Shown here piece after piece: positions 12,211 through 37,890 of a DNA stretch of 42,826 bases (the stretch's first letter is position 1; each line of letters opens with the position of its first letter). The translations under genes were made by a program, and so were the position numbers. The notes below the pieces were generated by a model. The model did no database searches. It saw nothing but the letters and a program-made list of their open reading frames with translations, and had not been told where the DNA came from. The stretch covers positions 1 to 42,826 of the forward strand of contig JACQVA010000144.1 of the NCBI GenBank assembly GCA_016210005.1. Reading direction: 5' to 3'. This DNA comes from Deltaproteobacteria bacterium. GTDB taxonomy: Bacteria; Desulfobacterota; Binatia; HRBIN30; JACQVA1.

Positions 12211-12213
12211 GGG

Positions 12214-15563: not shown

Positions 15564-15578
15564 GGGCCGGCATTGCGC

Positions 15579-19100: not shown

Positions 19101-21210
19101 CCCGGCGGAGGTCCTCATACAGGCGATATTCCGAGAGGTCCGTGAACGCCTGCATGACATCGCGCGCTGCGGGCGAGGTGGGATCGAGGTTACGGTCGCG
19201 GCCGACTTCACGCACGCCCAGGCCGCTCGCAGCGACCACGGCGGCGGCCACCCGATCGAAGGTGAGCTGGCCCTCACGCTGCAACGCCGCATGCAGAGCG
19301 CTGCGCAAGACCGCGACGTGAATGAAATCGTTGAAGTGGCCGGTTTGGAGCGACGCGTCCTGTCGGTTGTCGGTGAACGTCAGCAACTTATTACGAGCGA
19401 CGCCTGTATCACCGGCATGTTGCAGTACGGAGCTGGCGATGACCGTGGTGGCGCTGCTGCGCCCTTCGTTCGTGAGCGTGGCGAGCTTCGTCAGCTCGCT
19501 CTGACGAGCGGTATAGAACTCGCCGCACCCAAGACAGAGGGAGAAGGGCTGTGGTTGGTACCACACCTTGATCGCGCCGTCGCGAACGTCGCTGGCCAAC
19601 GAGCCGTCGGGCGCTACCCACAGCGCAGTCGGCACACGGTCGCGGTACGTGCTCTTCAGGCGACCCCGGCGGTCGCACCAGTCGTCGGGGATGTCCGATT
19701 CGCTCCAGTCGCGCTCATCACGGGCCAGCATGAAGTAGCCGGCGGTGCCCGGAGCGGCGGTCGGATCAACGACGCCTTCCGGATGAGGACGGAAGCGCGG
19801 CGGACTGTCATCGCGCAGCACGTGGTAATAGTCTTGCCCGCACTGCCGGCAAAAGCGGAGTGGCAAGAACACCCGGCCGGCGCCTGCGAATACCTGCCCT
19901 TCGACCGAGAACTCGCGCCGGTCGATTGGCTCTACGGTGGCATAGAGCGCACGCCCTTGCGCGACAAACTGGTGCAGCTTCATCGCGAACGCCCGTCCTT
20001 CTTCCGGCAGGCGAATCCGGCTTCCGCACAGAAGCGCATCCCGCAGCGCTTCCCGGCAACGCGCTTCTTCCACTGCTGAGTCTGTCGCCAGTTGCGACGC
20101 TGCGTCGATGAGCGTTCGCGGTACACGCCGCCGCAACTCGCCGGATGCCTCGGCTTCGAATCCGAGAGCCCGCTCGGCCCAGCGGGCAAGTGGATGCTGA
20201 CGGAAGGCATCGAATTCTCCCGGAAGCGGGCTGCCGATTGTGCCGGCCAGTTCGTCACGCGACGGAGGTTCGCTGCTGCCGGTCGTCAGGGGCTCGATAA
20301 CTTCTTCCACCACGTTGTCCGGTGCGACCAGCTGGCCGAACAAGCGCGTTGCGAAATCCGCGACGGCCTGTCGACGGGCTGGCGGCGAGGCGCTGCGATC
20401 GGACACCATTGTCGCACTCGTGCCGATACACAGCAGATCGGGCCGCGCACAGCGTTCGCGCAAGCGGCGAACGAGCAACGCCACGTCGGCGCCTTGTCGA
20501 CCACGATAGGTGTGCAGCTCGTCGAGCACGAGGAAACGGAGGCTGCGCTCGAGACCGAGCAAGCGGTGGTCTTCAGGACGAACGAGTATCAGCTCGGCCA
20601 TCACGTAGTTCGTCAGGATGATTTGTGGCGGGCGTTGCTGGATTTGCTCGCGCTCCGGGTCGCGCGTCTCGCCGGTGTAGCGCGCGAAGGTGACGGGGAA
20701 GTCGCGGCCGGTGCGGCGCGCAAAGCCCTCGCGCAACGTCTGCAGTGCCTTGAGTTGCGAGTTCACCAAGGCATTCATCGGATAGATCACCAGCGCCGCC
20801 ACGGCGTCGGTTGGCTGACCGGACCGGCACAGGGCATCGACGATCGGAAGAAAGTAGGTGAGGCTCTTGCCGGAGCCAGTGCCACTGGTGACCACGTAGC
20901 TGACCCGGCGCGCTGCAAGCTCCAACGCCGCGCGTTGGTGCTCGTACAAGCGAAACGGTTGCCCGTCGGCGTTTCGAAAGATCTCGCCGCAATCGGAATG
21001 AAGTGCGCCAGTGCGGGCCAGCTCAACCACCGTGGTGTTTCGGCGATATGACGGACTCAGCTGCAGCAGGAAATCCGGCCACAGCCGTGCTTCATCCGCC
21101 AGGGCCTGATCGACGAATGCCCGAGCGCGATCGTCCGCGATCGTGAAGAGCGACCGGACGTAGTCCTGGTAATCACTGAGGACGCTGGCGTGGAGGTCAA
21201 AGACGCTCAT
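16126..21210 (-). CDS. DEAD-type helicase with DUF1998 and C-terminal nuclease-like domain
   Basis: A 1694-aa protein of the YprA/MrfA-like (COG1205) helicase group. Walker A is TSGTGSGKS (108-116) and motif II is D-E-L-H. The second lobe has [20 protein letters not shown] and [11 protein letters not shown]. Zinc-binding pairs F-C-R-Q-C-G, C-L-G-C-G and C-R-T-C-G...C-P-Y-C follow, then DUF1998 with C1536, C1540 and C1543. The last 80 residues have P-D-F-F-Y (1629-1633), V-F-C-D-G-S and [10 protein letters not shown], resembling a Vsr/DUF559-type nuclease fold. DISARM splits helicase and DUF1998 between DrmA and DrmB; here they are one chain. It is the first gene of the defence locus, with a natural start M-S-V-F-D-L. 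Confidence 0.85.
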
Positions 21211-24407: not shown

Positions 24408-25184
24408 CTACCCCTTGATGCTCTTGCCGCCGTCCACGACCAGCGCGTGGCCGGTGACGAAGCGGGCTTCGTCGGAGGCGAGGTAGAGCGCGGCGTAGGC
24501 GATATCCTGCGCCTCGCCGACACGGCCGAGGGGAATGGCCTCTTCGTACATCTTCCGCACCCACTCGTCCTGATAGTAGTTCGACATCGGTGTGGCGATA
24601 GCGCCGGCGATGATCGAGTTGGCGCGAATATTTTCACGGCCGTAGCCCACGGCGATCGCGCGCGTGAGCGCGACCACGCCGCCCTTGGCGGCGGTGTACG
24701 CATGAATCGGGAATCCGCTGCCTTGAATCGCCGCGGCCGACGCGGTGTTTACGATCGCTCCGCCGCCACGTTTGATCAGCTCGGGGATGGCGTGCTTGCA
24801 GCCGAAGAACACGCCCTTGAGGTTGATGCTGTGGGTGTAGTCCCAGTCGTCGGCTTCCAGATCGGCAACTAAAGCATCGCGGCCCTCGCGAATGCCGGCG
24901 ATGCCGGCGTTGTTAAACATGATGTCCAAGCCGCCGTAGGTAGCGACGGCGAACTCCACCGCCGCTTTGACCTCCGCTTCCTTCGAGACATCGACGGCAC
25001 AGAAAGCCGCCGAGCCGCCCGTCTCTGTGATCGCCCGGACGGTCTCCTCGCCGCCTTCACGGTTCCAGTCCACCACCACCACGCGCGCGCCTTCTCGGGC
25101 GAACAGCTGTGCGCTCGCCCGCCCCATGCCCGAGCCCGCGCCGGTGATGAGCGCAACCTTGCCTTCAAGCCTTCCTGTTCTCAT
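24408..25184 (-). CDS. Short-chain dehydrogenase/reductase (SDR)
   Basis: 258 aa from ATG 25184, which has GAGG 9 nt upstream; the ATG at 25190 is too close to it. Classic SDR features are GKVALITGAGSGMGRA for the NAD(P) site, N-N-A-G-I-A, a serine in T-A-S-A-A-A-I-Q, the catalytic Y-T-A-A-K, and a C-terminal F-V-T-G-H-A-L-V-V-D-G-G. D-W-N after the first beta-alpha-beta suggests NAD preference. It probably oxidises a secondary alcohol produced by its operon partners. Inverted repeats occupy the gaps on both sides. Confidence 0.85.
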   Translation of the reverse strand: MRTGRLEGKVALITGAGSGMGRASAQLFAREGARVVVVDWNREGGEETVRAITETGGSAAFCAVDVSKEAEVKAAVEFAVATYGGLDIMFNNAGIAGIREGRDALVADLEADDWDYTHSINLKGVFFGCKHAIPELIKRGGGAIVNTASAAAIQGSGFPIHAYTAAKGGVVALTRAIAVGYGRENIRANSIIAGAIATPMSNYYQDEWVRKMYEEAIPLGRVGEAQDIAYAALYLASDEARFVTGHALVVDGGKSIKG

Positions 25185-25217
25185 CTGCATTGTCCTCGCA
25201 AGAGCAACAGAAAAAGG

Positions 25218-25341
25218 AACCACCGAGGCACAGAGCGCTCAGAGGCTGACGCGCTTGACCCCGTCGACGAGGCGCTCAACCTTGAAGTTGATGAGCAGGC
25301 CACGCTTGAGTCCCCACGGTGTCCTCGGTGCCTCTGTGGTT
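25218..25341. repeat. Inverted repeat enclosing a GxxExxY gene remnant
   Basis: aaccaccgaggcacagag (25218-25235) is inverted as cctcggtgcctctgtggtt (25323-25341), 16 of 18 positions matching. The enclosed DNA is the tail of a GxxExxY gene. The unit fills nearly all of the space between the hydrolase stop (25353) and the SDR start (25184). Confidence 0.8.
25239..25310 (-). pseudogene. GxxExxY protein, C-terminal remnant
   Basis: The minus strand reads R-G-L-L-I-N-F-K-V-E-R-L-V-D-G-V-K-R-V-S-L and a TGA stop. This matches the conserved ending of GxxExxY proteins (G-L-L-I-N-F-N-V-x-x-L-K-x-G-I-K-R), small nuclease-like proteins of unknown role. Only about 23 codons remain. Confidence 0.65.
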
Positions 25342-25352: not shown

Positions 25353-26246
25353 TCATGCAAGGCTCGGCAGGTGACGCTGGAACCACTCACGCGCCGCCGC
25401 CGTCACCTGCTCCAGCGCATCGCCGAGGTAGAAATCGACGTGAGTGACGCCGGGGAGAAGTAGGAGCTGCTTCGGCTCACCGGCGCGGGCGTACAGGCTG
25501 CGCGCCTCGTCGGGTGAAACCAGGTCGTCGTTGCCGGCATGGATGAAGAGGATCGGCCGCGGTGCGATGTTAGCCACCACGTCTTCCGGAGCGAACTGCG
25601 TGATCGCGTCGGCCGACTCCAACGTGATCGCGGCCTCCTCGCCGGTGAAGACGCCGCTCTGCGCCGCGGCTTCCATCAGCTCGCGGATTGCCGGGCTCGG
25701 CGGCACGACGTCGAACGCCTTCATCCGCCGCGAGCTGCCCATCCGCACGCGATCGCGCCGGTCACGTTCGAGCAGCGCCTCGAACTCTTGCCACTCCGAC
25801 GCGCTGCGCAACGAGCGCAGCCAGCGCCGGCCGTTGCCGATCGCCAGGCTGGCGACGGTGCACTTAACCCGCGCATCCATCGCGGTGACGTGCACGACGT
25901 TGGCGCCGCCGAACGAGGTGCCGTAGAGCCCGAGCCGCTCCGGATCGACGCCGTCTTGCAGCGCCAGAAACGTGAGCGCGTTGCGGATGTCCTCCGCTTG
26001 TTCGAGCGGCATCAGCCGATCGCGTGGCCCCTCGCTCTCGCCCCAACCGCGGTAATCAAAGATCAGACAGGCGTAGCCGGCTTCGCAGAACGCCTGCGCC
26101 AGGATGGGGAGAAACATCTCCTTGGTGCCGGTGTAGCCCTGGCAGAGCACGATGCCGGAACCGCGTCCCGACGGGCTGTCGGGTGCATAGAGCACGCCCG
26201 CCAATTTCGCCCCGCCGCTGAAGAAGTGAACCGCTCGCTCGTGCAC
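25353..26246 (-). CDS. Alpha/beta hydrolase
   Basis: About 297 aa. The preferred start is GTG 26246, 1 bp after the DUF1329 stop; a TTG at 26258 would overlap. The catalytic triad is visible: nucleophile S in Y-G-T-S-F-G-G, acid D in H-A-G-N-D-D-L-V, and H in P-G-V-T-H-V-D-F-Y. The lid region (about 150-215) is charged. G-Q-G-Y/R-G-W-G-E-S-E-G-like motifs place it with serine esterases/carbon-carbon hydrolases of the X-Pro dipeptidyl-peptidase/YbaK-like group. No signal peptide, so cytoplasmic. It may open an ester or ring intermediate in the pathway. The substrate is unknown. Confidence 0.8.
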   Translation of the reverse strand: MHERAVHFFSGGAKLAGVLYAPDSPSGRGSGIVLCQGYTGTKEMFLPILAQAFCEAGYACLIFDYRGWGESEGPRDRLMPLEQAEDIRNALTFLALQDGVDPERLGLYGTSFGGANVVHVTAMDARVKCTVASLAIGNGRRWLRSLRSASEWQEFEALLERDRRDRVRMGSSRRMKAFDVVPPSPAIRELMEAAAQSGVFTGEEAAITLESADAITQFAPEDVVANIAPRPILFIHAGNDDLVSPDEARSLYARAGEPKQLLLLPGVTHVDFYLGDALEQVTAAAREWFQRHLPSLA

Positions 26247-26247: not shown

Positions 26248-27582
26248 TTACTTCCCAAAGCGGATGAGGGCTTGCGAGTCGAAGAACCGAGGCTCCAACC
26301 GGATGCCGTAATCCGTCGGCGCGTTCTTCATGCCCGTCGGCGGCGGCCCCGCAATCGTCGCGCGCCCGAGCTTGAGGCTCTCGGAGCCCTGCCACGTGGT
26401 GGTGAAGCCACGGAAGTAGTTCTTGCCGTCGGGGCTAACGTTGAGGAGCCCCACGACTCCGTACACCGTCACCAATTCCCCACGCCAGTCGAACTTCCTG
26501 TTGAACGCACCCTGGTAGGTCTCTTTGTCGATGTACAATTGCACCTTGCCGTAGAGGTAGTACTTGTCCTTTGGAACGCCCTCGATGATCCAACACTTCC
26601 TCTTGGCGAGCGCCATGCTCACCGGCGCCCACGCCAGGCCTTTCCACGCCGGATCTTGGTAGCCGACCATCGGCTGATCCCCCAGCACGATACGCCAGCC
26701 GCCGGTGTCGAGCGCGTGCGTCGTGACCTCTCGCTTCAGGCTGTACGGATCGCAGAAGCGGTAGATGTCGGCTTCACCGACGAACTTCCAGGTGAAGTCC
26801 TCCGGTTTGCCGTCGAAGAACGGGCCGTCATCTTGGCTGAGGTCGGAGCCCAGGAACCCGTCCGACCGGTTCGCTGGGCTGATCTGGCGCACGCGCCGCA
26901 AGGCGGGGACAAAGGCCCAGACACCGTCTCGTCTCTCCGGGTCGCGGTAGCGCCAAGTCAGTGCGGCCGTGCCCTGCAGATCGGCTGGCGTCAGGGTGGT
27001 CGCCAGCATCTGACTCATCAGATTGCTCGGGTTGCTCGGCGGCCTGCGCCACGCCGGTTGGCCATCGTAGTAAAGGAAGTAGACCTCCTGACTGAGCGCG
27101 CGATCGAGACCGGCACGGCCAACCAGGTTGAGCATGGTGACGGTCCGGTTGTTTCCCTGGCTCCAGAAGCCGTAATAGTGGTTCCACAGGATCTTGACGC
27201 CGGCGGCAGGATCGTCCGGATCGATGCGCGGGAAGGGAACGCCGGCGATGAATGCCGGCTGCTGCCCCGTGCTTTTCTCGACCACGGTTCCCTCGGCCGT
27301 AACCGCGAACCGATCCGCGTTGGCGCTGCGGGACGCTTTGAAGTCTTCGTCCCACTCCATCACCCCCTCGGGCCACTCCATGATGCGGTTGGCGTACTCG
27401 CCTCGGCGGTAATGTTCCAGGATCTCCGGAGGCAGGAAACCTTCGGCCTGCTGCCAATTATGCTGATCGAGAACCTCTCCCGGCCGCAGACGCTGGTCCT
27501 GTTCCGCACTTGCCGGCAGCGGGGCGAGCAGCGTGAGCAGGAATGCTGCAACGAGCCTCGTTCTCAACTTGCAGGGCATCAC
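26248..27582 (-). CDS. DUF1329 secreted protein
   Basis: 444 aa with a Sec signal peptide (L-V-A-A-F-L-L-T-L-L-A-P-L-P-A-S-A, cleavage after A-S-A near residue 26). The body is full-length for DUF1329, with V-P-A-L-R-R-V-R-Q-I-S-P-A-N-R-S-D-G and the C-terminal A-L-I-R-F-G-K. DUF1329 proteins are thought to sit in the periplasm or at the outer membrane; they recur in hydrocarbon and steroid degradation clusters and may bind hydrophobic molecules. It follows the flavoenzyme gene by 6 bp and precedes the hydrolase by 1 bp. The partial copy at 119-727 resembles its second half. Confidence 0.85.
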   Translation of the reverse strand: MMPCKLRTRLVAAFLLTLLAPLPASAEQDQRLRPGEVLDQHNWQQAEGFLPPEILEHYRRGEYANRIMEWPEGVMEWDEDFKASRSANADRFAVTAEGTVVEKSTGQQPAFIAGVPFPRIDPDDPAAGVKILWNHYYGFWSQGNNRTVTMLNLVGRAGLDRALSQEVYFLYYDGQPAWRRPPSNPSNLMSQMLATTLTPADLQGTAALTWRYRDPERRDGVWAFVPALRRVRQISPANRSDGFLGSDLSQDDGPFFDGKPEDFTWKFVGEADIYRFCDPYSLKREVTTHALDTGGWRIVLGDQPMVGYQDPAWKGLAWAPVSMALAKRKCWIIEGVPKDKYYLYGKVQLYIDKETYQGAFNRKFDWRGELVTVYGVVGLLNVSPDGKNYFRGFTTTWQGSESLKLGRATIAGPPPTGMKNAPTDYGIRLEPRFFDSQALIRFGK

Positions 27583-27588: not shown

Positions 27589-29634
27589 TTACAATCGCGC
27601 CGCGAGCTCGAAGGCCTCGCACGCGGCGGGCAGCGACTTCCGCGGCCAGCGCGCATCGCCGATGGTGTGCGTGCGGATTCCTTCCGCCCGGAGCTTCTTT
27701 GCGAGCGCTCCGTCCCGGCGCAGCTTGCACACCACGACGGCATCGACGTTACTGAGCACCCGTCCGTTGCTCAAGGTGACGTTCCCGCGGACGGCATCAC
27801 TGACGGTGCAGTCTCGAACGATCTCGACGCCGCGTTCGGCCAGCTTGATCCTCAGGTAGAGAGCAGACGCGGTTACCTCCATGACATCCAGCGGGAAGAA
27901 GCGAGGAAGCTCCACGGCAATCACGTCCTTTCCGAGCTGCGACAAGTACAGACTGACGCTCAGGCAGTAAAGGTCATCGCCCCACACGACGAGCTTCTTA
28001 TCCGCGCCGTTACCGGCGACCGCCTCGTCCATGCTCAGGCAGCGCACCTGCGCGTGCCACGGCGGCAGCGACGGTCTTGCTCCGGCGGCGACGATGACGG
28101 TGTGCGGGTTCAGCACTCTGATCTTGGCCACGCTGGCGTCTTCTCGCCGGACAGTGACGTTGAGCCGCTCCAGCTCCTTCTTCATGAAGTCGAGGAAAGT
28201 CCTGGTTTCGCCGTTGCCTGGCACTTGCGCCATCAACTGCAAGCGCCCACCGAGCTGGCCCTTCTCGAACAGGATGACCTCGTGGCCTCGACGCGCGAGC
28301 ACTTCGGCGGCCGTCATGCCTGCTGGTCCGCCGCCGACGACAACGGTGCGCTTTTTCTCGGCCGGGGTAACGCGTAGTCTGCCCTCGGCGCCGAGCTGCG
28401 GGTTGACCAGGCAGTGAATGCCGCCCTCCAGTCCCTCCGAGATTTCGAGGCACTGGTTGCAGCCGATGCACGTGCGGATCTCGTCAAATCGACCTGCCTG
28501 CGCCTTGTTGGGCATCTCCGGATCGGCGAGCAGCGCGCGGCCCATGATGACCAGGTCCACCTGGCCGTTTCGCAGCAGCGACTCGGCGTGCACAGGATCG
28601 ACCACGCGAATCCCGCCCATGACGGGGATGCGGACGGACTGCTTGATTGCCTCGGCGAGTGGCACGAAGGCGCCCGGCGCGTCTGCCATCGGCGGGATCA
28701 TGAACGGATACGAGCCATACAGGCCGGCGGTGACGTTGATAACATCGGCCCCCGCGTCCTCTGCCCACGCGGCCATGGCCTTGGCGTCGGCGAGCGTGGC
28801 GCCGCCGTCGACGAAGTCGGCGCCGTTGAGCCGCAGCGAGATGACGAGGTCCTCACCGGCAACGCGCCGGACTTCGCGGATCACCTCCAGTGTGAATCGC
28901 GCCCGCCCCTCCAGGCCGCCGCCGTATTCGTCGGTGCGCTGGTTCAACAGAGGAGAGTAGAACTGGTTGAGGAGATACCCGTGGCAGCAGTAGACCTCGA
29001 CGCCGTCGCCGCCGATGGCTTTGACTCGCCGCGCCGCCTCGCCGTGCTTTCGGATCAGATGGCTGATTTCGTCCTGCGTGAGGGCTTGCGGCCGCGCCTT
29101 GGAGATGTGCTCGAACACCTGGCCGTGCTTGCGAAACCCCCACGACGGCGGTCCCGCCGACGGACCTTTCGGTTGGCGCGCGAACCTCCAGGCCGAACCG
29201 AACAATCTTGCATACGCGCCCGGGAAGTATTTTGGAAGGGACACCGCCAAGCGCTCCAGGCCCGGGACGTGCGGTAGGAGGTAGAACAACGGAGAGTAGA
29301 TCGATCGCCGCCCGCCGTGGCCCAGTTGAAAGAAGAGCGCCGTCCCGTGTTCGTGCACGACCTCGGCGAGCCGGGCGAGCGGCGGGATGAAGCGGTCGTG
29401 GTCGATCAGCGGTTCCATCAACGGGATGACGTTGCCGGTGCGGTCGATCCCGGTGTGCTCGAAGATGATCAGGCCGACGCCGCCGCGCGCCTTGGTGCGA
29501 TGGAACTCGATGTGACGTTCGCTGATGCGCCCGTCGAGATGGCCAAAGCCGGTGCCCTGACCGGGCTGGACGATGCGGTTCTTGATCGTCTTGCCGCGGA
29601 TGGTGATGGGTTGGAAGAGGCACTCAAGGTTCAT
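27589..29634 (-). CDS. OYE/2,4-dienoyl-CoA reductase-like flavoenzyme
   Basis: 681 aa from ATG 29634 (M-N-L-E-C-L-F-Q-P-I). The N-terminal barrel (1-375) is an NADH:flavin oxidoreductase with E-V-Y-C-C-H-G-Y-L-L-N-Q-F-Y-S-P and R-T-D-E-Y-G-G. A 4Fe-4S site at C389, C392, C395 and C408 has the same spacing as trimethylamine dehydrogenase. The second half binds FAD/NAD (VVVGGGPAGMTAAEVLARRG). This is the dienoyl-CoA reductase/BaiCD layout, which reduces conjugated enoyl groups, including in steroid-like rings. It opens the catabolic operon. A residual N-terminal extension to 29727 looks spurious. Substrate is inferred. Confidence 0.85.
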   Translation of the reverse strand: MNLECLFQPITIRGKTIKNRIVQPGQGTGFGHLDGRISERHIEFHRTKARGGVGLIIFEHTGIDRTGNVIPLMEPLIDHDRFIPPLARLAEVVHEHGTALFFQLGHGGRRSIYSPLFYLLPHVPGLERLAVSLPKYFPGAYARLFGSAWRFARQPKGPSAGPPSWGFRKHGQVFEHISKARPQALTQDEISHLIRKHGEAARRVKAIGGDGVEVYCCHGYLLNQFYSPLLNQRTDEYGGGLEGRARFTLEVIREVRRVAGEDLVISLRLNGADFVDGGATLADAKAMAAWAEDAGADVINVTAGLYGSYPFMIPPMADAPGAFVPLAEAIKQSVRIPVMGGIRVVDPVHAESLLRNGQVDLVIMGRALLADPEMPNKAQAGRFDEIRTCIGCNQCLEISEGLEGGIHCLVNPQLGAEGRLRVTPAEKKRTVVVGGGPAGMTAAEVLARRGHEVILFEKGQLGGRLQLMAQVPGNGETRTFLDFMKKELERLNVTVRREDASVAKIRVLNPHTVIVAAGARPSLPPWHAQVRCLSMDEAVAGNGADKKLVVWGDDLYCLSVSLYLSQLGKDVIAVELPRFFPLDVMEVTASALYLRIKLAERGVEIVRDCTVSDAVRGNVTLSNGRVLSNVDAVVVCKLRRDGALAKKLRAEGIRTHTIGDARWPRKSLPAACEAFELAARL

Positions 29635-29650: not shown

Positions 29651-29820
29651 GTGCGGGAGCCTGCTCCCGCTTTGGGGTGGTGTGTGGCGCCGGAGCGCGG
29701 CCCGAAAGCGGCGGCAAGCCGCCGCACTCCACATTGACAACTCTGCGCAGTTCATTGGCCCGCCAGGGCAGCGCCGCCCGCCGCCTGCTCCCTCTCCTCC
29801 CAGGAGAGGGTCGGGGTGAG
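29651..29820. repeat. Cluster of three short palindromes
   Basis: Hairpins gcgggagc/gctcccgc (29653-29670), gcggcggc/gccgccgc (29708-29725) and ccctctcc/ggagaggg (29790-29810) fill the 208-bp gap upstream of the flavoenzyme gene. The first two recur together at 31909-31985. They look like REP-type intergenic repeats. The operon promoter may lie among them; no clear boxes were seen. Confidence 0.65.
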
Positions 29821-29842: not shown

Positions 29843-30211
29843 CTAGAGGCCGGCGTACGCGATGACCATCCCGAAGGTGAGTGCCGCCGAGCACCAATAC
29901 CGGACGAACGACGGCGGGCGGCTCAGCCACCATTCGACGAATCGTTGGAGACGCGCGGCGCCCAACGCGAGCAGCGCCACCGCTCCAACAAGCTCGAGCG
30001 CTCCGAGGACGCGGACAAAGCTCGGGAAGCGACAAGACGACGCTGCCAGGATGAAGAGCACTCCGAATCCGAGCCGCAGGGCGAGCGTCACCGGAAGCCC
30101 GGTGAGAACGCGCCAACGAGAGAGGAGGTTGGCCAGCTGGCGTGGAGCAGCAACACCGAGCAGGCCAACTCCCGCAACGCCGATGCCCGCGAGAGAAACC
30201 AAGAGCGCCAT
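29843..30211 (-). CDS. Small integral membrane protein
   Basis: 122 aa from ATG 30211, which has GAGGAG 8 nt upstream. Four hydrophobic segments are visible: A-L-L-V-S-L-A-G-I-G-V-A-G-V-G-L-L-G, G-L-P-V-T-L-A-L-R-L-G-F-G-V-L, V-L-G-A-L-E-L-V-G-A-V-A-L-L-A-L and S-A-A-L-T-F-G-M-V-I-A-Y. Short charged loops include L-S-R-W-R. No known motif is recognisable. It stands between two palindrome clusters with no close operon partner. The topology and the ribosome binding site make it a credible gene; the function is unknown. Confidence 0.7.
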   Translation of the reverse strand: MALLVSLAGIGVAGVGLLGVAAPRQLANLLSRWRVLTGLPVTLALRLGFGVLFILAASSCRFPSFVRVLGALELVGAVALLALGAARLQRFVEWWLSRPPSFVRYWCSAALTFGMVIAYAGL

Positions 30212-30400: not shown

Positions 30401-31675
30401 TCACGCGCATTGGGCGCAGTCGCAGCCGTCGAGCAGCCGCATGAAGTCGAGGTCGCAGCTCCAGCTGTTACACCGGGCGCAGGGATAGACATGCCCCTGA
30501 CCGTGCATGCGGTGCTCTTTGATCAAGCGGTAGCGTTCGTAGCCCACTCGGATGAAATACTCCGCCGGCGGTTTCGGCCGGCCGTGGTAGGCGGCGCCTT
30601 CGGTGGATTGCCACACGGTGGTGCGCGGCAGGACGCCCTTCTGAAGCAACGTCGCGAAGCACCGCCGCCACGCCTCCAGCCCTTCCTCGGCGTCGCGGAT
30701 GCCGTGGTCGGAAACCGTCTCGACGCCGACCACGAAATTGCTCTGCACGTTGCCGGCGCCGAAGATGCCGACCGCCCGCTCCAACGCCGCCAGACAACTA
30801 TCGCGCCCGATGTAGCGCGACTTCGCCGGCACGATCTCGGGCCACAGGCGCGCCTCCCAGGTGTCCATGTGATGCGCCAGCACGTTGAGGCCGGCGTCCT
30901 TGAGCCGCCGCTGGTCGGCTTCCGCCATGGCGGACACGCAGGCTTCGAAGCAGGCGGCGCTGCCCAACTCGTCGCGTACCGCCTTCAGCGGCGCCAGAAT
31001 CTTGCTGTAGTGCGCCGCCTCCTTGTGCGTGTCGCGCAGGCTGCCCCCGGTGAGCGATACGTGCCGCACGGGGCCGTGCGCCAAGGCACGGCGAAATCCT
31101 TCGGCCCAATGATCGGGGTGCGCCGAGATCGAGTACTCGAAGCCGCGGCGCTGGAAGTCGTCGACGGTCGAGTCGAGGCTGCAATAGCGGCACTGCTCAT
31201 CCGTGCGCGAGTATTCGCAGTAGCGCAGAATGCAGCCGAAGAGGCACGAGCGCGAGAACAGCTGAATGACAGTGGGCAGCAGTTGTCCGTCGCCCAGAGC
31301 CGTCATGTACCAGTCGGGCCGGGGCTCGAAGGCGATCGGCTCGATTTCCTCGCCCTCACGGCACAAGACGTACTGAACGGCGCCGGACTTGCGGATGGTG
31401 TACGGGCTGGTCTTTTCCAACACCAGCTTGACCGGCGTGCCGTCGGCCAGGTCGAACTTCCACGGTACCATCATCATCCGCTCGTCGTCGGCCTTGGGGT
31501 TGTCTGCGTGTACCGGGTTCCACAGCAGGAAGAACGGCAGCGACGAGCCCCCGGCCTCTTCCACTTCGGGCGTGTACTGCACCCCGTCACGCAGCAGCTC
31601 GGTCTTGAGCAGGATGCTGCGGGGAAGGCCGGGGAAGGTGTCGGACAACTGGGCGAGGCGTGCTTGCCCTTGCAT
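30401..31675 (-). CDS. Radical-SAM-like protein, paralog 1
   Basis: 424 aa. It shares with three neighbours an N-terminal block F-P-G-L-P-R-S-I-L-L-K-T-E-L-L-R-D-G, a C153-x8-C162-x2-C165 cluster (C-E-Y-S-R-T-D-E-Q-C-R-Y-C), an L-T-G-G-S-L motif about 50 residues later where radical-SAM enzymes have G-G-E, and R-L-K-D-A-G with W-E-x-R-L-W-P-E-I-V-P. The three cysteines would bind the SAM 4Fe-4S cluster, though the spacing is not the classic C-x3-C-x2-C. The C-terminus is Cys-rich (C-A-R-C...C-D-C-A-Q-C) and may bind a second cluster or zinc. The 51-aa gene 3 bp upstream matches this tail. The reaction is unknown. Confidence 0.75.
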   Translation of the reverse strand: MQGQARLAQLSDTFPGLPRSILLKTELLRDGVQYTPEVEEAGGSSLPFFLLWNPVHADNPKADDERMMMVPWKFDLADGTPVKLVLEKTSPYTIRKSGAVQYVLCREGEEIEPIAFEPRPDWYMTALGDGQLLPTVIQLFSRSCLFGCILRYCEYSRTDEQCRYCSLDSTVDDFQRRGFEYSISAHPDHWAEGFRRALAHGPVRHVSLTGGSLRDTHKEAAHYSKILAPLKAVRDELGSAACFEACVSAMAEADQRRLKDAGLNVLAHHMDTWEARLWPEIVPAKSRYIGRDSCLAALERAVGIFGAGNVQSNFVVGVETVSDHGIRDAEEGLEAWRRCFATLLQKGVLPRTTVWQSTEGAAYHGRPKPPAEYFIRVGYERYRLIKEHRMHGQGHVYPCARCNSWSCDLDFMRLLDGCDCAQCA

Positions 31676-31678
31676 GGG

Positions 31679-31834
31679 TCACTCCACGCCGTCGATCAGC
31701 CGGGCGAAGTCGCGCGGCAGCGTGTAGACGCCGCACTTGTAGCAGCCGGCATCGAGGCCGACGTCGTAAGTCAGGTTGCAGCACTCCGCGATCCGGTCTC
31801 TTTGCGGCACGCTCCGTGGCACCACGCCGATCAT
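31679..31834 (-). CDS. 51-aa Cys-rich protein resembling the radical-SAM C-terminus
   Basis: The ATG at 31834 has AAGGAGG 8 nt upstream, a strong ribosome binding site, and the stop is 3 bp before radical-SAM paralog 1. The product has C-C near residue 18, then G-C-Y-K-C-G-V-Y and D-F-A-R-L-I-D-G. This matches the paralogs' C-terminal C-x2-C...D-F-x-x-L-L-D-G module without any catalytic domain. It could be a free-standing metal-binding subunit or the last piece of a lost paralog. The good start signal favours a real gene. Confidence 0.7.
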   Translation of the reverse strand: MIGVVPRSVPQRDRIAECCNLTYDVGLDAGCYKCGVYTLPRDFARLIDGVE

Positions 31835-31908
31835 GGCTTAGCCCTCCTTTGAACGGTCCCTCGACAGAAACAAGCGCCAACCCCTTGGAGTGCTCCGGTG
31901 TGGAACGT

Positions 31909-31985
31909 GGGAGCTTGCTCCCGCTTTGGCCGCGGGCAGCCGGCCGCCCGATGCCCAGCAGCGAAAAGCGGCGGCAAGCCGCCGC
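31909..31985. repeat. Palindrome pair, second copy
   Basis: gggagc/gctccc (31909-31922) and gcggcggc/gccgccgc (31968-31985) repeat the pair at 29653-29725 with a similar order and spacing. They lie in the 214-bp gap between paralogs 2 and 1, where no gene is visible. Confidence 0.65.
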
Positions 31986-32048
31986 ACTCCACCATGGTGC
32001 GTCCGTACTATCACTGGCCCACGTCTTCTCCGCCGTTACACTCTTTCC

Positions 32049-33344
32049 CTACGCGCAGTCCTCGCACGAGCAGCCGTGGACCAGACGGCGGAAGTCACTG
32101 TCGGTGCTCCAAGCCGAAGCCTTGTACAGATGGTGGCGCATGTAGCCGTAGGTGCCGGCCGCCGCCATCGACTCGTGATGCGCCTGCGCCACTTGCAGGA
32201 AGTATTCGGTCGGCGGCGGCTCCTTGGCCTCCCATGGCGAGCCGACCTCGACTTCCCACTGACTGGTGGAGGGAATGATCTCGTTGGCGAGCAGCCACTG
32301 GAAGCAGCGGCGCCAGGAGTCCACGCCCTCGGCTGGGCTCTGAAAGCCACCCGGCGCCACCATCTCCGGACCGATGACAAAGACGCTGTACACGTGGCCC
32401 TTGCCAAACACCTGGTGACAAGTCCGCAGCGAATCGATCCACATCTGGCGCCCGACGAACTTGTGCTTGCCGGGGACGATCACCGGCCACAGTCGTTCCT
32501 CCCAACAGTCCATGTTCGGGCCGATGTAATCGAGCCCGGCATCCTTCAGCCGTTGCACGGTACCGAGGTCCGGCGGCGGCGTCATGCAGGCGGTGAAGTC
32601 GGTCTTGGCGCGGCACTCTTCACGCACGCGGTTCAGCGCCTCGTACAGACCGACGTAGCGCGCTGACTCCTTGGCGGTGTTAAGCAGGCTGCCGCCGGTG
32701 AAATCGAGATGGCGAATGCGGCCCACCTCGGCGAGCGCGGCGCGGTAGGTCTCGGCGGCGCTGTCGGCCTTCACGGCCAAGTCGTACTCGATCCCTTGGC
32801 GCTGGTACTCCTTGAGGTTGGCGTCGAGGCAGCAGTAGACGCACTGGTCGCCGGACTTGGTGTATTCGCAGTAACGCAGCGCGCAGCCGAGCAGGGCCTC
32901 GCGCGTCCAGGACAAGAACACCGACGCCATCAGCGTCCCGCCAGACGTGCTTTGGAACAGCCAGTCGGTTCTCGGCTCGAAGCTCACCGCTTCGAGCACC
33001 TCGCCGTCGCGCAGGAGCGAGTAGCTGCCGTTGGTCTTGCGGACCTCGTACGGGCTGCTGCGGGAGAAGCGCACGACGACGGGTGTGCCATCACGCAGAT
33101 CGAACTTCCACGGGATGGTGATGAGCTGCTCGCCCGCGGGCGCCTCTTGTGGATTCCAGCGATGGTGCGGATTCCAGATCAGGGAGTGCGGAAAGGTGGT
33201 GGTGCCGGCCGCCTCCAAGTCGCGCGTGTAGCGCGTCCCTTCCCGGAGGATATCCGCCTTGATGACGATGCTGCGCGGAATCGCGGGGAAGGTCTCGCAC
33301 AACTGAGCGATGCGTTCGTGTCCGCGTAATCCACTCACTGTCAT
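32049..33344 (-). CDS. Radical-SAM-like protein, paralog 2
   Basis: 431 aa from ATG 33344 (GGAGAGGAG upstream). The frame is open to an ATG at 33425, whose ATGA overlaps the stop of a micro-ORF, so a 458-aa form is possible. The cluster motif is C159-x8-C168-x2-C171 (C-E-Y-T-K-S-G-D-Q-C-V-Y-C), followed by L-D-F-T-G-G-S-L and L-K-D-A-G-L-D-Y-I-G-P-N-M-D-C-W-E-E-R-L-W-P. Unlike the others it lacks the C-terminal C-x2-C and ends G-C-S-C-E-D-C-A. Part of a minus-strand operon of paralogs 4, 3 and 2. Confidence 0.75.
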   Translation of the reverse strand: MTVSGLRGHERIAQLCETFPAIPRSIVIKADILREGTRYTRDLEAAGTTTFPHSLIWNPHHRWNPQEAPAGEQLITIPWKFDLRDGTPVVVRFSRSSPYEVRKTNGSYSLLRDGEVLEAVSFEPRTDWLFQSTSGGTLMASVFLSWTREALLGCALRYCEYTKSGDQCVYCCLDANLKEYQRQGIEYDLAVKADSAAETYRAALAEVGRIRHLDFTGGSLLNTAKESARYVGLYEALNRVREECRAKTDFTACMTPPPDLGTVQRLKDAGLDYIGPNMDCWEERLWPVIVPGKHKFVGRQMWIDSLRTCHQVFGKGHVYSVFVIGPEMVAPGGFQSPAEGVDSWRRCFQWLLANEIIPSTSQWEVEVGSPWEAKEPPPTEYFLQVAQAHHESMAAAGTYGYMRHHLYKASAWSTDSDFRRLVHGCSCEDCA

Positions 33345-33421
33345 GGGTTGCTCCTCTCCTGCTGGTGAAGTTGGCCGCAGGTGTAGGACGCGGCTGTGGT
33401 GGAAACAATCGGCCGGCGGGT

Positions 33422-33484
33422 TCATTTCTCGTGGTTCGGAAGTACCGGTACGAACGGTTCAGCCGCCGGCGCGTCCTTGCTCAT
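33422..33484 (-). CDS. 20-codon micro-ORF between paralogs 3 and 2
   Basis: Its ATG overlaps the paralog 3 stop (ATGA) and its own TGA overlaps an upstream ATG of paralog 2 (ATGA again), a chain typical of coupled translation. The peptide is 20 aa with two prolines near an aromatic residue (E-P-F-V-P-V-L-P). It may be a coupling peptide, a short substrate peptide, or chance. No independent ribosome binding site was seen. Confidence 0.35.
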   Translation of the reverse strand: MSKDAPAAEPFVPVLPNHEK

Positions 33485-34791
33485 ACGGTGGCCTCCTGCG
33501 AGCGGTCTTCGCTGCCACCGAGCAGCCACTGGAAGTCGGAGTCGGAACTGAGGTAACCGCAGCGGTGACAGGTCGACGAGTAATGCGGCCGCGCGTCGGT
33601 GGGGAAGTACATGCCGTGGCGCGCCAGGATTTTGTGGCGTTCGAGTCCGATGGTGAGAAAGTACTCAGTCGGCGGCGCCTGCCGCGGCTCGTAGAGCGAG
33701 CCGGGCGTGTTGCACCAGATGTGAGTGCGGGATTGGACGCCGCTCTGGGCGCACCACTCGATGCCCTCGAGCACCGACTTGATCCCGTCCGCATAGCTAG
33801 CAAAGCCGTCCGCCACCAGCTCCACGCCGACGACGAACTGGCAGAAGGCGCGGCCACGGCCGAAGCGCGCCACCGCGCCCTCCAGCCGTTCCATCCACTC
33901 CCGACGCCCGATGTGGCGGTTCTTGCCCGGCACGATCTCCGGCCACAAGCGCTCTTCCCACACTTCCATGTTGAAGCAGACCTCATCGACGCCGGCGTCC
34001 TTGAGCCGGTCCTGCCCGTCGTCATCGAGTGCCGCGGACATCACCTGGATGGTGAGATTGGCGCCGCGCTCAGCGCGCACGCGAGCTAGCTGCTCGGCGA
34101 CGCGGGCGTGAATGTCTGCCTCCTTCTGCTGATCGCGCAAGGCGCCGCCCGTTAGCGTAATGTGCCGAATCTCCATCTCGTCGAGCGCGGCGGCGAGACA
34201 CGTGGCGGCCGCCTCGCCCGACATGATGACGTCGTGATAGCCGTCGCCTTTGGCGATATTCTTGCCCGTCGGGTTCAGGCAGCAGAAGCGGCAGATGTCT
34301 TCAGGCTGGTAGTAGGCGCAAAACCGAATCGGGAAGCCGAGCAAGCGATCGGGTGATGACAACACGAAAACGCTGGCCATCTGGCGGCCATCTGCCAGAC
34401 GGCGCGATAACCACTGCGGCCGCTTTTCGAAGCTGATGGGAATGACCGGCTCGTCGCCGTGGCGTAGCCAGAAGGCCCCGTCGTGCTCGCACATCTCATA
34501 CGGGCTGGTGTGGTGGCGGACGAAGTCATAGATGACTTTGGCGGTGATGCCTTCGGGAAAGCTCATGCTGTGCGGCAGCCACGCCCAGTCTTGCCCCACC
34601 AGCGCATCCTCGATGGCGGTGTAGTCTTTGTGCACCTCACGGTCCCAGGGCAGGAACTCCGGGATGGCCCACTTGCCGATGTCGAGCGCCAGCGGCGTGA
34701 AGCGCACCGCCTCGCGCAGCACGTCGGTCTTGATCACGATCGAGCGCGGAATCTCCGGAAACTGGCGGCACAAATCGTCGATGCGGCTCAT
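33481..34791 (-). CDS. Radical-SAM-like protein, paralog 3
   Basis: 436 aa. The N-terminal block is F-P-E-I-P-R-S-I-V-I-K-T-D-V-L-R-E-A. The cluster motif is C158-x8-C167-x2-C170 (C-A-Y-Y-Q-P-E-D-I-C-R-F-C), then H-I-T-L-T-G-G-A-L and R-L-K-D-A-G-V-D-E-V-C-F-N-M-E-V-W-E-E-R-L-W-P. The tail has T-C-H-R-C-G-Y-L-S-S-D-S-D-F, the clearest form of the C-terminal C-x2-C module. It is 22 bp from paralog 4. The divergence among copies suggests distinct substrates or steps, not simple gene dosage. Confidence 0.75.
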   Translation of the reverse strand: MSRIDDLCRQFPEIPRSIVIKTDVLREAVRFTPLALDIGKWAIPEFLPWDREVHKDYTAIEDALVGQDWAWLPHSMSFPEGITAKVIYDFVRHHTSPYEMCEHDGAFWLRHGDEPVIPISFEKRPQWLSRRLADGRQMASVFVLSSPDRLLGFPIRFCAYYQPEDICRFCCLNPTGKNIAKGDGYHDVIMSGEAAATCLAAALDEMEIRHITLTGGALRDQQKEADIHARVAEQLARVRAERGANLTIQVMSAALDDDGQDRLKDAGVDEVCFNMEVWEERLWPEIVPGKNRHIGRREWMERLEGAVARFGRGRAFCQFVVGVELVADGFASYADGIKSVLEGIEWCAQSGVQSRTHIWCNTPGSLYEPRQAPPTEYFLTIGLERHKILARHGMYFPTDARPHYSSTCHRCGYLSSDSDFQWLLGGSEDRSQEATV

Positions 34792-34813
34792 GGGATGCTG
34801 CCCTTTCGCTCGG

Positions 34814-36118
34814 CTATGCGGCCATCGGACTGTGGCCAGCGGGCGCGCTCGCCAGGTCCGCTTCCAGACTCACCGTGCGGCACTTGCGGCAGGTGCTCTG
34901 GAGCAGCGGGACGCGATACTGCCGATACAGCTCGCGCTGCAGCTGCGAGATCTCGAGAAAATATTCCGTCGGCGGCGGCGGGGAGTTCTCCCACGGCGAG
35001 CCCGGCGCCGGCGTCCAAAAGGTGAACCGCGGCAAGACGCCGTGGTCGAGGAAGAAGGTCAAATACTCCCGCATCGACTTGACCGCCGCACTGATGGTCG
35101 GCAGGCCGTGCGGCTGAACCGTCTCGCAGCCGGCGACGACCGTCGTCGTCGACTTCCACGGGCTCAGCAGCTTGGCCGCGCGTAGCATGGCTTGAATCCA
35201 TTCGTCACGGCCGACGTACTTCGCCTTACCCGGCACCAAGACGGGGTAGAGCTTCTCTTCCCACACCTCCAACGGGTGACAAAGCGTGATCTTGCCGCGG
35301 CCGGCCTCGACCACGCGCCGCTGATCGTCTTCGTCGAACGCCTGGGTGATGACGTGCCAGGGCAGCTCGTTGTCGGGGCCGAGCCGCTCCATCATCTCGT
35401 CGAGGAAGCGGACGTAGAGCGACGCCTCCCGCTGCCGATCGAACAATCCACCACCGGTGAGATTGAAATGCGCGACCGGATGCTCCTCGCTTGCGGCCCG
35501 ATAGACTTCGAGCACCCGGTCCACCGTCGGCTTCATCGTCCGTTCGATGCCGAGCTCGCGGGCGTGATCGACCGACGGCACGATGCAGCAGAACACGCAT
35601 TGCTCGTTGGTGTTGAAGTACTGGCAATGGCTCAGCAGCGTGATGGCGAAGATGCAGTTGCGTCCCGCTGTCGACACGATCTTGCACATCGGCGTGCCGT
35701 CGCGCGCGCGGCGCATGAACCACTGCGGCCGCGGCTCGAAGAAGACCTCCTCGACCTCCTCGCCATCGCGGCAGAGCATGTAGCGGGTATCGCCCGGGAG
35801 GATCTTGATCGTGTACGGGCTGTCGGCGGCCAGCTTGACGATCGTGCTGGTGCCGTCGCGCAACTGAAAGAGGCACGGGAGCAGCACCCAGCCTTCGGCG
35901 ACTTCGAGCTTGTCGTCGAGATGGTCGTGGTCCCAGTCGAAGATCATGTGGGTGTGCGGAATCGCCCAGCGGCCGATGACGTTGAGATCGGGAGTCCACG
36001 CCACGCCCTCGCGGAAGGCGTCGGCCTTGACGATGGCGGAGCGCGAAATGCCGGGAAATTGCTCGGCCAGCTGGTTGATGCGCTCACACCCTTTCTTGCC
36101 GTTCTCGGCGCGAATCAT
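34814..36118 (-). CDS. Radical-SAM-like protein, paralog 4
   Basis: 434 aa from ATG 36118, with GAGGAGG 6 nt upstream; the longer frame to 36202 overlaps the epimerase gene and is unlikely. The cluster motif is C165-x8-C174-x2-C177 (C-Q-Y-F-N-T-N-E-Q-C-V-F-C), followed by F-N-L-T-G-G-G-L. The C-terminus has S-T-C-R-K-C-R-T. It is the most divergent paralog and directly follows the epimerase gene by 20 bp, so it is first of the four in the operon. Catalysis by radical SAM chemistry is inferred from motif order only. Confidence 0.75.
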   Translation of the reverse strand: MIRAENGKKGCERINQLAEQFPGISRSAIVKADAFREGVAWTPDLNVIGRWAIPHTHMIFDWDHDHLDDKLEVAEGWVLLPCLFQLRDGTSTIVKLAADSPYTIKILPGDTRYMLCRDGEEVEEVFFEPRPQWFMRRARDGTPMCKIVSTAGRNCIFAITLLSHCQYFNTNEQCVFCCIVPSVDHARELGIERTMKPTVDRVLEVYRAASEEHPVAHFNLTGGGLFDRQREASLYVRFLDEMMERLGPDNELPWHVITQAFDEDDQRRVVEAGRGKITLCHPLEVWEEKLYPVLVPGKAKYVGRDEWIQAMLRAAKLLSPWKSTTTVVAGCETVQPHGLPTISAAVKSMREYLTFFLDHGVLPRFTFWTPAPGSPWENSPPPPTEYFLEISQLQRELYRQYRVPLLQSTCRKCRTVSLEADLASAPAGHSPMAA

Positions 36119-36138
36119 GGTGCCCTCCTCGCTGCCCG

Positions 36139-37155
36139 TTACAGCCCGCGCACGGTTGCCAGGCTCCGTTTGTTGGCGATGTAGCCGTTGTCGCGGAACC
36201 ACCGGATCGTGTCGCGGATGCTGTCCTTGAGATCACGAAAAGCGAGGCCAAGCTCGGTGACCGCCTTCTGGTTGCTGTAATGATACGTCAGGTCGGACAT
36301 CCGCACCCGCGGAATGCTGAGAATCGGGCGGCGGTGGGTGACGTACTGCGACACCAGCGGGGCGACTACACCGATGGGATACAGCAACTGGTGCGGCAAG
36401 CGGAAGCGCGGCGCCGGAATACCCGTGACTTCTTCGATGAGCCGAAAGAAGTCGCGGAAGCTCATGTTCACGTTCCCCAAGATGTAGCGCTCGCCGATGC
36501 GGCCCTTCTCGGCCGCCAGGATGAGACCCTTGGCGCAATCGCGGGCATCGATGAAATTCAACCCGCCGGCGGGATAGCCGAGTACCCGGCGATTGGCGTA
36601 CGCCACCATCAGCTGCCCCGACGGTGATGGGATCGGATCGTTCGGCCCCATCAGAAACGTCAGCGCCACGCTGAGCGCCGGACAGCCGCGCTGTGCCGCC
36701 TTGAGAGTTTCCACGTAGCCGAGGAAGAGCGAGATCTCGGTGTGGTTGGCCAGGTGGAGGAGGTTGAGGACCGACTCCTCGTCGAGCAGCTCGCCGTTGT
36801 GACTGTGGCCGACCGAGGTGACGCCGTTCACGTGGATGAACTTCTCCACCCCGGCGGCGGTACTGGCCTCCATGAAGTGGCGTTGCCCGAGAACGTTGGC
36901 GTCGTACACGTCCTGCGTGCGCTCCGACCAGAACAATGCCCCCACACTGAACACCCACCGGCACCCCTGCACCGCCGCGCGCAACGACGGGGGATCGCGG
37001 AGATCCCCCACCGCCTTCTCGATGTCGAGCCGGTCGATCAACGAGCGGTTACTGCCCGAGCGCACCAAAGCGCGGACGCTATGCCCCTGGGCGAGCAGCT
37101 CCTCGACCAGAGCGTAGCCCAGCAGGCCCGTTGCCCCGGTCACTAGTGCACGCAT
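36139..37155 (-). CDS. NAD-dependent epimerase/dehydratase, HpnA-like
   Basis: 338 aa extended SDR. The Rossmann motif is VTGATGLLGYA (G-x2-G-x2-G). Residues 40-70 (D-I-E-K-A-V-G-D-L-R-D-P-P-S-L-R-A-A-V-Q-G-C) and G-E-R-Y-I-L-G-N-V-N-M-S-F-R-D-F-F follow the pattern of hopanoid-associated HpnA and 3-beta-HSD-like enzymes. The expected catalytic Y-x3-K is not clean: the sequence is Y-V-E-T-L-K, so Tyr and Lys are one residue too far apart. It may reduce a sugar or sterol-like ketone with altered chemistry, or be a binding protein. First gene of the radical-SAM operon; no good ribosome binding site. Confidence 0.75.
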   Translation of the reverse strand: MRALVTGATGLLGYALVEELLAQGHSVRALVRSGSNRSLIDRLDIEKAVGDLRDPPSLRAAVQGCRWVFSVGALFWSERTQDVYDANVLGQRHFMEASTAAGVEKFIHVNGVTSVGHSHNGELLDEESVLNLLHLANHTEISLFLGYVETLKAAQRGCPALSVALTFLMGPNDPIPSPSGQLMVAYANRRVLGYPAGGLNFIDARDCAKGLILAAEKGRIGERYILGNVNMSFRDFFRLIEEVTGIPAPRFRLPHQLLYPIGVVAPLVSQYVTHRRPILSIPRVRMSDLTYHYSNQKAVTELGLAFRDLKDSIRDTIRWFRDNGYIANKRSLATVRGL

Positions 37156-37449: not shown

Positions 37450-37890
37450 TCACGCCCCGCCGGGGCCGCCCCGGTCGCGGAAGATGCCGAAGGTGCCGAG
37501 GGCTTTGGCGATCAGCTGGCCGTCTTCGGTGAAGCACTCGCCCTCGACCGCTGCTACGGTGCGGCTTAAGCGCAGTACGCGCGCCTTGGCGAGCAACGCC
37601 GGCTGCCGCGAGAAGGTGACGTAGTTGAGATTGAGCGCGTGCGTCGCCGTGCGGTCGTAGGGGCCGATGTTGCAGGCGACCGCCGCGCCCAGCGCGGTAT
37701 CCAGCAACGCCGAAATCGCCCCGCCAAATACCGCCCCGAAGGGCGAGAACATTGCCGCCGGCACATCCATCCGCATCACCACCTCCTCGGTCGATACGCT
37801 CACTACCTGCATACCCAGCAGCCCGAAGAACGGGGGCATCTCGAGCTCGCGCTCGCGTAGATCCAATGGATGCGGTGGACGGTTCGCCAT
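37450..37890 (-). CDS. PaaI/4HBT-type hotdog thioesterase
   Basis: 146 aa. The motif F-G-A-V-F-G-G-A-I-S-A-L-L-D-T-A-L-G-A-A corresponds to the hotdog active-site helix with its catalytic acid D (the family usually has H-G-G; here F-G-G, so the usual His is replaced). The end has T-E-D-G-Q-L-I-A-K-A-L-G-T-F. Such enzymes hydrolyse acyl-CoA thioesters in the cytoplasm, often aromatic or medium-chain ones. It is divergent from the next gene, with a 93-bp shared upstream region. Confidence 0.8.
   Translation of the reverse strand: MANRPPHPLDLRERELEMPPFFGLLGMQVVSVSTEEVVMRMDVPAAMFSPFGAVFGGAISALLDTALGAAVACNIGPYDRTATHALNLNYVTFSRQPALLAKARVLRLSRTVAAVEGECFTEDGQLIAKALGTFGIFRDRGGPGGA

Follow-up and report, generated by a model that had tools for sequence, protein, structure and literature searches.

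The stretch of DNA analysed here (the window) comprises positions 1 to 42,826 of contig JACQVA010000144.1, from the Deltaproteobacteria bacterium assembly GCA_016210005.1 (Desulfobacterota; Binatia). Between positions 30401 and 36118 its minus strand carries four homologous open reading frames (ORFs), P0001 to P0004, which belong to a variant family of radical S-adenosylmethionine (SAM) proteins and lie within a long run of genes in one orientation. A preliminary description of this DNA had recognised the four paralogs by their cysteine spacing and placed an HpnA-like gene at their head.

Variant radical-SAM paralogs and their predicted fold

The ORFs are 424-436 residues long and are homologous over most of their length. 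In a profile search against radical-SAM families, all four scored above the cut-off of 125 bits for the NCBIfam family NF045502 (variant_rSAM), with 195.9, 206.9, 209.2 and 183.3 bits for P0001 to P0004, respectively. With such scores, the likeness of the four proteins is a matter of homology rather than chance. The genome holds eight matches to this family; besides the window copies, there are three on contig C6 and a distant cousin on contig C266. As had been described, the window copies are widely diverged, the other three sharing 42, 35 and 33% identity with P0001. The C-x8-C-x2-C motif is present in every copy; the L-T-G-G motif that the preliminary description assigned to each copy is found in three, P0002 having F-T-G-G.

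When the window copies were aligned with 41 relatives (alignment A4, 45 rows), 18 columns were invariant, including the three cysteines, the G-G and G-x-E positions and an N-terminal lysine. The invariance of the first cysteine is partly built in, because this residue is part of one of the two patterns used to retrieve the 41 relatives. The N-terminal block common to the window copies, K-x-D-x-L-R-x-G, proved to be nearly invariant in the wider family too: in P0002 numbering, K29 is invariant and D31, L33, R34 and G36 are conserved in at least 90% of rows. P0001 to P0004 retain all 18 invariant columns, which argues against their being decayed copies. As a family trait, the C-x8-C-x2-C triad was deduced from these relatives and not taken from the description of NF045502; it is absent from the relatives at loci L117, L049 and L070.

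AlphaFold2 models of P0002 and P0004 were made on the family alignment, with pLDDT (predicted local distance difference test) of 86.1 and 85.7, respectively, and pTM (predicted template modelling score) of 0.89 for both. Each model combines a (beta/alpha)6 barrel with three helices at the N terminus and a small beta insert. Structure prediction thus gave the partial triosephosphate isomerase (TIM) barrel of a radical-SAM fold for both copies modelled. The cysteine loop sits between strand 1 and helix 1 of the barrel (in P0002, strand 150-154, Cys 159/168/171 and helix 173-182), and the predicted place of the triad in the barrel topology is that seen in radical-SAM enzymes. Biotin synthase ranked first in a Foldseek search with the P0002 model (E 1.4e-5) and is also the nearest solved protein by sequence (E 0.0057). 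The closest solved folds in VIA-align 2 comparisons were LipA, MqnE, BioB, HydE and PylB, at 10-17% identity. P0002 aligned with lipoyl synthase (5exj) at Z 17.6 and a root-mean-square deviation of 3.2 A over 232 residues, and with MqnE, BioB, HydE and PylB at Z 16.7, 16.1, 16.1 and 15.4; for P0004 the values were Z 16.2 (3.3 A, 236 residues) for lipoyl synthase and 14.8, 14.2, 15.0 and 14.5 for the other four.

The window family differs from these solved enzymes in its motif spacing of 8 and 2 and in its lack of invariant auxiliary-cluster cysteines. LipA and BioB insert sulphur with the help of an auxiliary cluster, whereas PylB and MqnE carry out single-cluster chemistry. Only the triad cysteine columns are invariant among the 45 aligned rows, with no fourth, so that an auxiliary cluster of the BioB/LipA type is not a feature of the family. 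This argues for chemistry of the PylB/MqnE type and not for sulphur insertion.

The short ORF between P0002 and P0001 (31679-31834) was considered separately. Its ATG is preceded by AAAGGAGGG, a good ribosome-binding site; it encodes 51 residues, four of them cysteines, and stops 3 bases ahead of the P0001 start. A small, well-initiated, cysteine-bearing ORF directly adjoining a radical-SAM gene could be the precursor of a peptide natural product that the radical-SAM enzymes modify. However, a profile made from seven radical-SAM tails, with this ORF excluded, picked it out of 7271 stop-to-stop segments of own-genome DNA with E 1.4e-5; the stronger hits were four tails used to build the profile, and the best hit elsewhere than in the radical-SAM loci had E 0.075. 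As judged by this match, the ORF is a stand-alone copy of the C-terminal CxxC...D-F-x-R-L module of the family, and it may be the terminal remnant of a fifth copy that has been lost, or else a subunit in its own right. The contig C6 copy at L038:7796-9040 is without this tail. Since the ORF thus appears to be a detached enzyme module, and no exporter or peptidase was seen beside the copies in a reading of the gene lists, a peptide precursor is extremely unlikely.

The co-directional gene run and its sister locus

The paralogs are part of a 16-kb run of genes on the minus strand, from 37866 to 21395, with intergenic gaps of 1 to about 295 bases (Table 1). The run is longer than was first noted and does not end at 30401. 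Among its genes are short-chain dehydrogenases/reductases (SDRs), a flavoenzyme of the old yellow enzyme (OYE) or 2,4-dienoyl-coenzyme A (CoA) reductase type, a DUF1329 protein and the alpha subunit of a type-II dimethyl sulphoxide (DMSO) reductase, beside which no beta or gamma gene was called. Genes outside the ORF lists were called by a custom codon-usage script, and gene names without a family match were assigned by reading of the sequence.

Table 1. Features of the co-directional run in the window and the window-type radical-SAM copies on contig C6
Feature	Position	Strand	Remarks
Hotdog-fold thioesterase (TIGR00369 / 4HBT)	37450..37866	-	First gene of the run
P0005, SDR, HpnA/SdmB-like	36139..37155	-	Heads the radical-SAM genes; second best HpnA match of the genome
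P0004, variant radical-SAM paralog	34814..36118	-	C165/C174/C177; longest branch of the four window copies
P0003, variant radical-SAM paralog	33481..34791	-	C158/C167/C170
P0002, variant radical-SAM paralog	32049..33344	-	C159/C168/C171; 57% identity to one contig C6 copy
GC-rich intergenic repeat (span of motifs)	31907..31985	-	Second copy at 29653..29725
51-codon ORF	31679..31834	-	Between P0002 and P0001
P0001, variant radical-SAM paralog	30401..31675	-	C153/C162/C165
Small protein, membrane-like by reading	29843..30211	-	No Pfam (E 0.001) or NCBIfam (E 1e-5) match
GC-rich intergenic repeat, second copy	29653..29725	-	
OYE / 2,4-dienoyl-CoA-reductase-type flavoenzyme	27589..29634	-	OYE_2 and BaiCD best models
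DUF1329 protein	26248..27579	-	116.3 bits, cut-off 23.1; 55% identity to two C6 copies
Alpha/beta hydrolase	25353..26246	-	
SDR oxidoreductase	24408..25223	-	48% identity to contig C6 SDR
Type-II DMSO-reductase alpha subunit	21395..24244	-	Last gene of the run; Tat-like signal by reading
Window-type radical-SAM copies (contig C6)	57852-58784, 59231-60352, 76533-77528		NF045502 match

Several genes of the run have sisters on contig C6. Besides the three radical-SAM copies, this contig carries two DUF1329 genes and an SDR (identities in Table 1), two OYE genes (30 and 36% identity to the window gene) and an HpnA-like SDR (37%). The two DUF1329 genes flank the radical-SAM gene at 76.4-77.7 kb. 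Also found around them are CoA ligases, acyl-CoA dehydrogenases, a CaiB-type CoA-transferase, an enoyl-CoA hydratase, amidohydrolases and a protein that reads as SCP2-like and is without an NCBIfam match. Models for a cyclohexanecarboxylate-type ligase and dehydrogenase and for steroid-24-oyl-CoA synthetase score on C6 proteins, all below their cut-offs. BaiCD and the mycofactocin model OYE_2 are the best models both for the window OYE gene and for the C6 gene at L038:10493-12442, at scores of only about half of the cut-offs.

Linkage to the radical-SAM genes was assessed within 10 kb of the seven window-type copies, a zone of 62,103 bases or 1.05% of the genome. Three of the six OYE loci of the genome fall inside it (binomial P 2e-5), as do both HpnA-like genes above 250 bits (P 1e-4; the next match in the genome has 147 bits) and 3 of 13 DUF1329 genes above 100 bits (P 3e-4). 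These P values overstate the case, because the three families were chosen after the loci had been viewed; the binomial test also treats genes as independent, which genes of one pathway are not.

The preliminary description had placed an HpnA-like gene ahead of the paralogs and, from this and from the modification of hopanoids by radical-SAM enzymes, thought a lipid or other natural product possible. P0005 does stand at the head of the radical-SAM genes, and HpnA (TIGR03466) is its best model, but at 272.9 bits it remains below the cut-off of 367.65; SdmB gave 200.2 bits (cut-off 600). The C6 sister is similar, with 338.7 bits for HpnA and 274.0 for SdmB, both below cut-off. Hopanoid pathways contain radical-SAM enzymes, and the paralogs might accordingly be thought to act on a polycyclic lipid of the cell's own making, whose head group would be added or remodelled by the HpnA-like enzyme. 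However, no match above the HpnA cut-off was found anywhere in the genome. It had been noted that no squalene-hopene cyclase gene is nearby, and this extends to the whole genome (97.57% complete), in which TIGR01507 found no match; among the control genomes Bacillus subtilis gave a match and none scored above the cut-off. The neighbours at the two loci, DUF1329, OYE, CoA ligases and acyl-CoA dehydrogenases, are of catabolic type. Hopanoid or membrane-lipid tailoring was thus rejected as very unlikely, and the cluster looks like one serving the catabolism of a greasy, ring-shaped compound rather than the making of membrane lipids. For both HpnA-like genes the second-best model is SdmB, a reductase of sterol demethylation, so a cyclic isoprenoid is possible as food and not as product.

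The left half of the window is filled by a defence-like island (3324-21210). PADLOC models identified there a dCTP-deaminase-type gene (dCTPase, 523 bits), a DrmMI-like methylase (266), a DpdE/DrmD-like helicase (623/311) and a DruE-like helicase (275).

Distribution and neighbourhoods in other genomes

Matches to NF045502 above the cut-off were found in 33 of 98 genomes, the window's own included. The 97 relatives have at most four listed matches per genome, whereas the window genome has eight, four of them in one gene run; its seven window-type copies are also distinguished by their ties to DUF1329, OYE and HpnA-like genes. No 16S rRNA gene was found in the assembly, a weak negative given that only 9 of 14 control genomes gave a match. 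By sequence matches (L118=L126, L046=L148, L079=L172), Desulfocarbo indianensis belongs to the same phylum, and metagenome-derived genomes labelled 'Deltaproteobacteria bacterium RIFCSPLOWO2_12_FULL_60_19' and 'Syntrophobacter sp. SbD2' to the same class. A profile of the window-type copies and the copy at L041 matched at least 23 of 395 genomes of the phylum (own included) at E <=1e-30; this is a lower bound, up to four candidates having been scored per genome. A search through 84,980 species, based on aligned distant members, gave at least 593 pattern stretches, at least 573 of which encode relatives. Among the matches listed were Streptomyces, Desulfosarcina, Desulfocarbo, Planctomycetota, Acidobacteria and Spirochaetia. 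Eighty of the matched loci were kept, and 41 of these entered alignments A4 and A5. A scan of the genome contigs with alignment A1 gave 28 pattern matches and no relatives.

A maximum-likelihood tree of 64 rows was built, leaving out L045, L113, L070, rows below 35 bits and the two copies of genome G123 (L116), which were missed by the gene caller. The seven window-type copies of the genome group together, with support of only 90/61. A clade of ten, made up of these seven and single copies from G088, G127 and G172 (L041, L110 and L112), has support of 99/95. The end branches of the seven copies measure 0.28-1.25, and the nearest relative of P0002 in the tree is its C6 sister. Recent tandem amplification is ruled out by these deep lineages and by the location of the closest sister of P0002 on another contig; they point instead to an old expansion over two loci.

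Membership of the MSMEG_0568 family (TIGR04043, Nit1C cluster) was also considered. The kinship is weak, the window copies scoring 81.9, 57.2, 66.1 and 66.2 bits against a cut-off of 303.7, and this family is placed outside the window clade in the tree, so membership was rejected. An Acetobacter example of MSMEG_0568 has C-x9-C-x2-C where the window copies have C-x8-C-x2-C.

We compared 71 loci outside the window genome. Several of these come from a single genome, another genome is represented twice (L118/L126), and two loci (L111 and L122) have no radical-SAM gene. An OYE gene (blastp E 1e-10, half coverage) was present in five: it adjoins the radical-SAM gene in L115 and L128, lies less than 6 kb away in L142 and L123, and is about 19 kb away in G127 (L110/L111).

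Other arrangements were recorded by reading. In Desulfosarcina cetonica, Desulfocarbo, a Syntrophobacteraceae metagenome-assembled genome (MAG) and a Desulfotomaculum MAG, a distant copy is followed by genes resembling HyuA and HyuB. This arrangement is seen in L124, L125, L126 and L127, which come from sulphate reducers and the Desulfotomaculum MAG; L124 and L125 also have molybdenum-hydroxylase-like genes, and L124 and L127 acyl-CoA dehydrogenase-like genes. In L116 (2364-11509), NifH-like and NifD/NifK-like genes lie between two variant radical-SAM genes, and an ABC-type binding protein gene and a PNPOx-like gene are also present. Such a PNPOx-like flavin-fold gene directly adjoins distant variant radical-SAM genes in L117, L116 and Streptomyces loci such as L163; it is above the Pfam cut-off in L117 and L163 and below it in L116, and a similar-looking gene in L119 has no Pfam match. 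No PNPOx-like gene was seen beside the window copies. The C266 cousin (L040, 6789-8009) has ThiF-, MoaD-like, CysK-, threonine-synthase-, SLC13- and sulphate-adenylyltransferase-like neighbours by reading, an arrangement found again in relatives.

The neighbours of distant family members bear on the substrate. HyuA/B-like genes near L118/L126, L124, L125 and L127, MmgE/PrpD-like genes in L115, L142, L060 and others, a UbiD-like gene in L115 (all by reading) and adjoining organic-acid transporters, together with the sub-cut-off matches of cyclohexanecarboxylate-type models on C6, would suit a catabolic cluster of the same type that acts on aromatic or small alicyclic acids instead of polycyclic isoprenoids. 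At the window-type loci, however, DUF1329, the SdmB/HpnA-like SDRs and the BaiCD-like enzymes point to larger hydrophobic substrates. We regard small acids as a possible substrate class, although not as the expected one.

Candidate substrates and chemistry

Ethylbenzene dehydrogenase and steroid C25 dehydrogenase are members of the type-II subfamily of DMSO reductases that use water to hydroxylate alkyl side chains; eight alpha paralogs occur in Sterolibacterium denitrificans (PMC6016249). In the genome studied here there are 23 type-II alpha genes, each with at least 746 bits, and it thus resembles Sterolibacterium in having many alpha paralogs. At E 1e-150, 13 of 39 genomes (own included) have at least one, and four genomes other than the window's have 9 to 14. 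Of the 17 alpha genes in the window genome whose surroundings were read, only three have a beta-like gene beside them by this reading (one in L226, two in L227). DUF1329 proteins have been linked to growth of Delftia on phenanthrene and, in an anaerobic benzene degrader, to a gene cluster with high expression (PMC13101534). The DMSO-reductase and DUF1329 context points to hydrophobic substrates.

From these neighbours and the predicted fold, we put at about even the chances that P0001 to P0004 are catabolic enzymes that act on substrates, activating C-H bonds of hydrophobic alicyclic compounds. DUF1329 would handle the hydrophobic compound at the cell surface and help its uptake, and the DMSO-reductase-like enzyme could hydroxylate it with water. 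The SDRs and the BaiCD-like flavoenzymes would establish its alcohol, ketone and enone functions; CoA ligases would then activate the products, and acyl-CoA dehydrogenases and thioesterases would process the resulting acyl-CoAs. To the radical-SAM paralogs would fall the hard, oxygen-free steps. Each would bind one [4Fe-4S] cluster through its C-x8-C-x2-C cysteines, at the opening of the partial TIM barrel, and cleave SAM to the 5'-deoxyadenosyl radical, which would abstract hydrogen from an unactivated substrate carbon. Whether the outcome is rearrangement, desaturation or C-C cleavage is a guess. The paralogs may differ in the position they attack or in the compound they accept within an alicyclic class that is possibly isoprenoid or steroid-like. 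Their deep divergence, which had earlier suggested successive reactions, fits different reactions or different substrates; they could just as well catalyse one reaction on several substrates. In its most specific form, the proposal is that the oxygen-independent breakdown of a polycyclic isoprenoid or steroid-like compound depends on a battery of seven paralogs in two homologous catabolic islands, each paralog acting on another carbon or congener; we hold this to be rather unlikely in all its particulars.

A number of observations weigh against a catabolic role of this kind. In Pfam, P0001 to P0004 score 24.0, 23.8, 25.7 and 17.4 bits for Radical_SAM (PF04055; E 5.1e-5, 5.7e-5, 1.5e-5 and 0.0052), below the gathering cut-off of 29.5. 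No gene fixes or names the substrate, the scores for BaiCD, EbdA, HpnA and SdmB being all below cut-off: the window OYE gene has 415.9 bits for mycofactocin OYE_2 and 378.3 for BaiCD (NF041087, cut-off 825), both too low, and the alpha subunit gene passes TIGR03479 (993.4 bits, cut-off 984.75) but has only 616.4 for EbdA (cut-off 2000). A type-II DMSO reductase is not itself the radical-SAM system. Nor are these reductases specifically tied to the radical-SAM loci: only 1 of the 23 lies within 10 kb of a copy (P 0.22), and the alpha-rich relatives G008, G014 and G023 have no variant_rSAM match (G012 has one), so that the two traits are separable. In other genomes, the five OYE loci are a modest excess over the one or so expected by rough estimate, and one of them, L123, adjoins an MSMEG_0568-like cousin; DUF1329 occurs in 1 of the 71 loci, L117, where the radical-SAM gene has a deviating cysteine motif. 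The gene lists read showed no conserved neighbour across the family, and none common to the actinobacterial (Streptomyces, Actinoplanes), acidobacterial, planctomycete and spirochaete groups in the loci read. The catabolic setting would thus be typical of some lineages only and not of the whole family.

Radical-SAM maturases are common, and HydE and HydG are among the closest folds, so the paralogs might instead modify or build the cofactor of a partner, for example a molybdo- or flavoenzyme, and not act on a small molecule. The case for type-II DMSO reductases as dedicated partners is weak, given how few lie near a copy. There is also no invariant cysteine beyond the triad, and seven diverged maturases spread over two loci would be unusual. 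We consider a maturase role improbable.

NF045502 is known by name and is without an assigned function, and its occurrence as an array in a catabolic setting is new. No description of this radical-SAM system was found in searches of an open-access library. For anaerobic oestrogen breakdown, one paper reports a lack of evidence for any radical-SAM enzyme (PMC7448270). The family is widespread, and the array makes this orphan family testable, since recognisable neighbours allow substrates to be guessed and the natural variants lying side by side can be compared. If a catabolic role of P0001 to P0004 is borne out, it would be a use of radical-SAM enzymes on an unactivated hydrocarbon skeleton, and radical-SAM chemistry would join the known oxygen-independent attacks on hydrophobic ring compounds.

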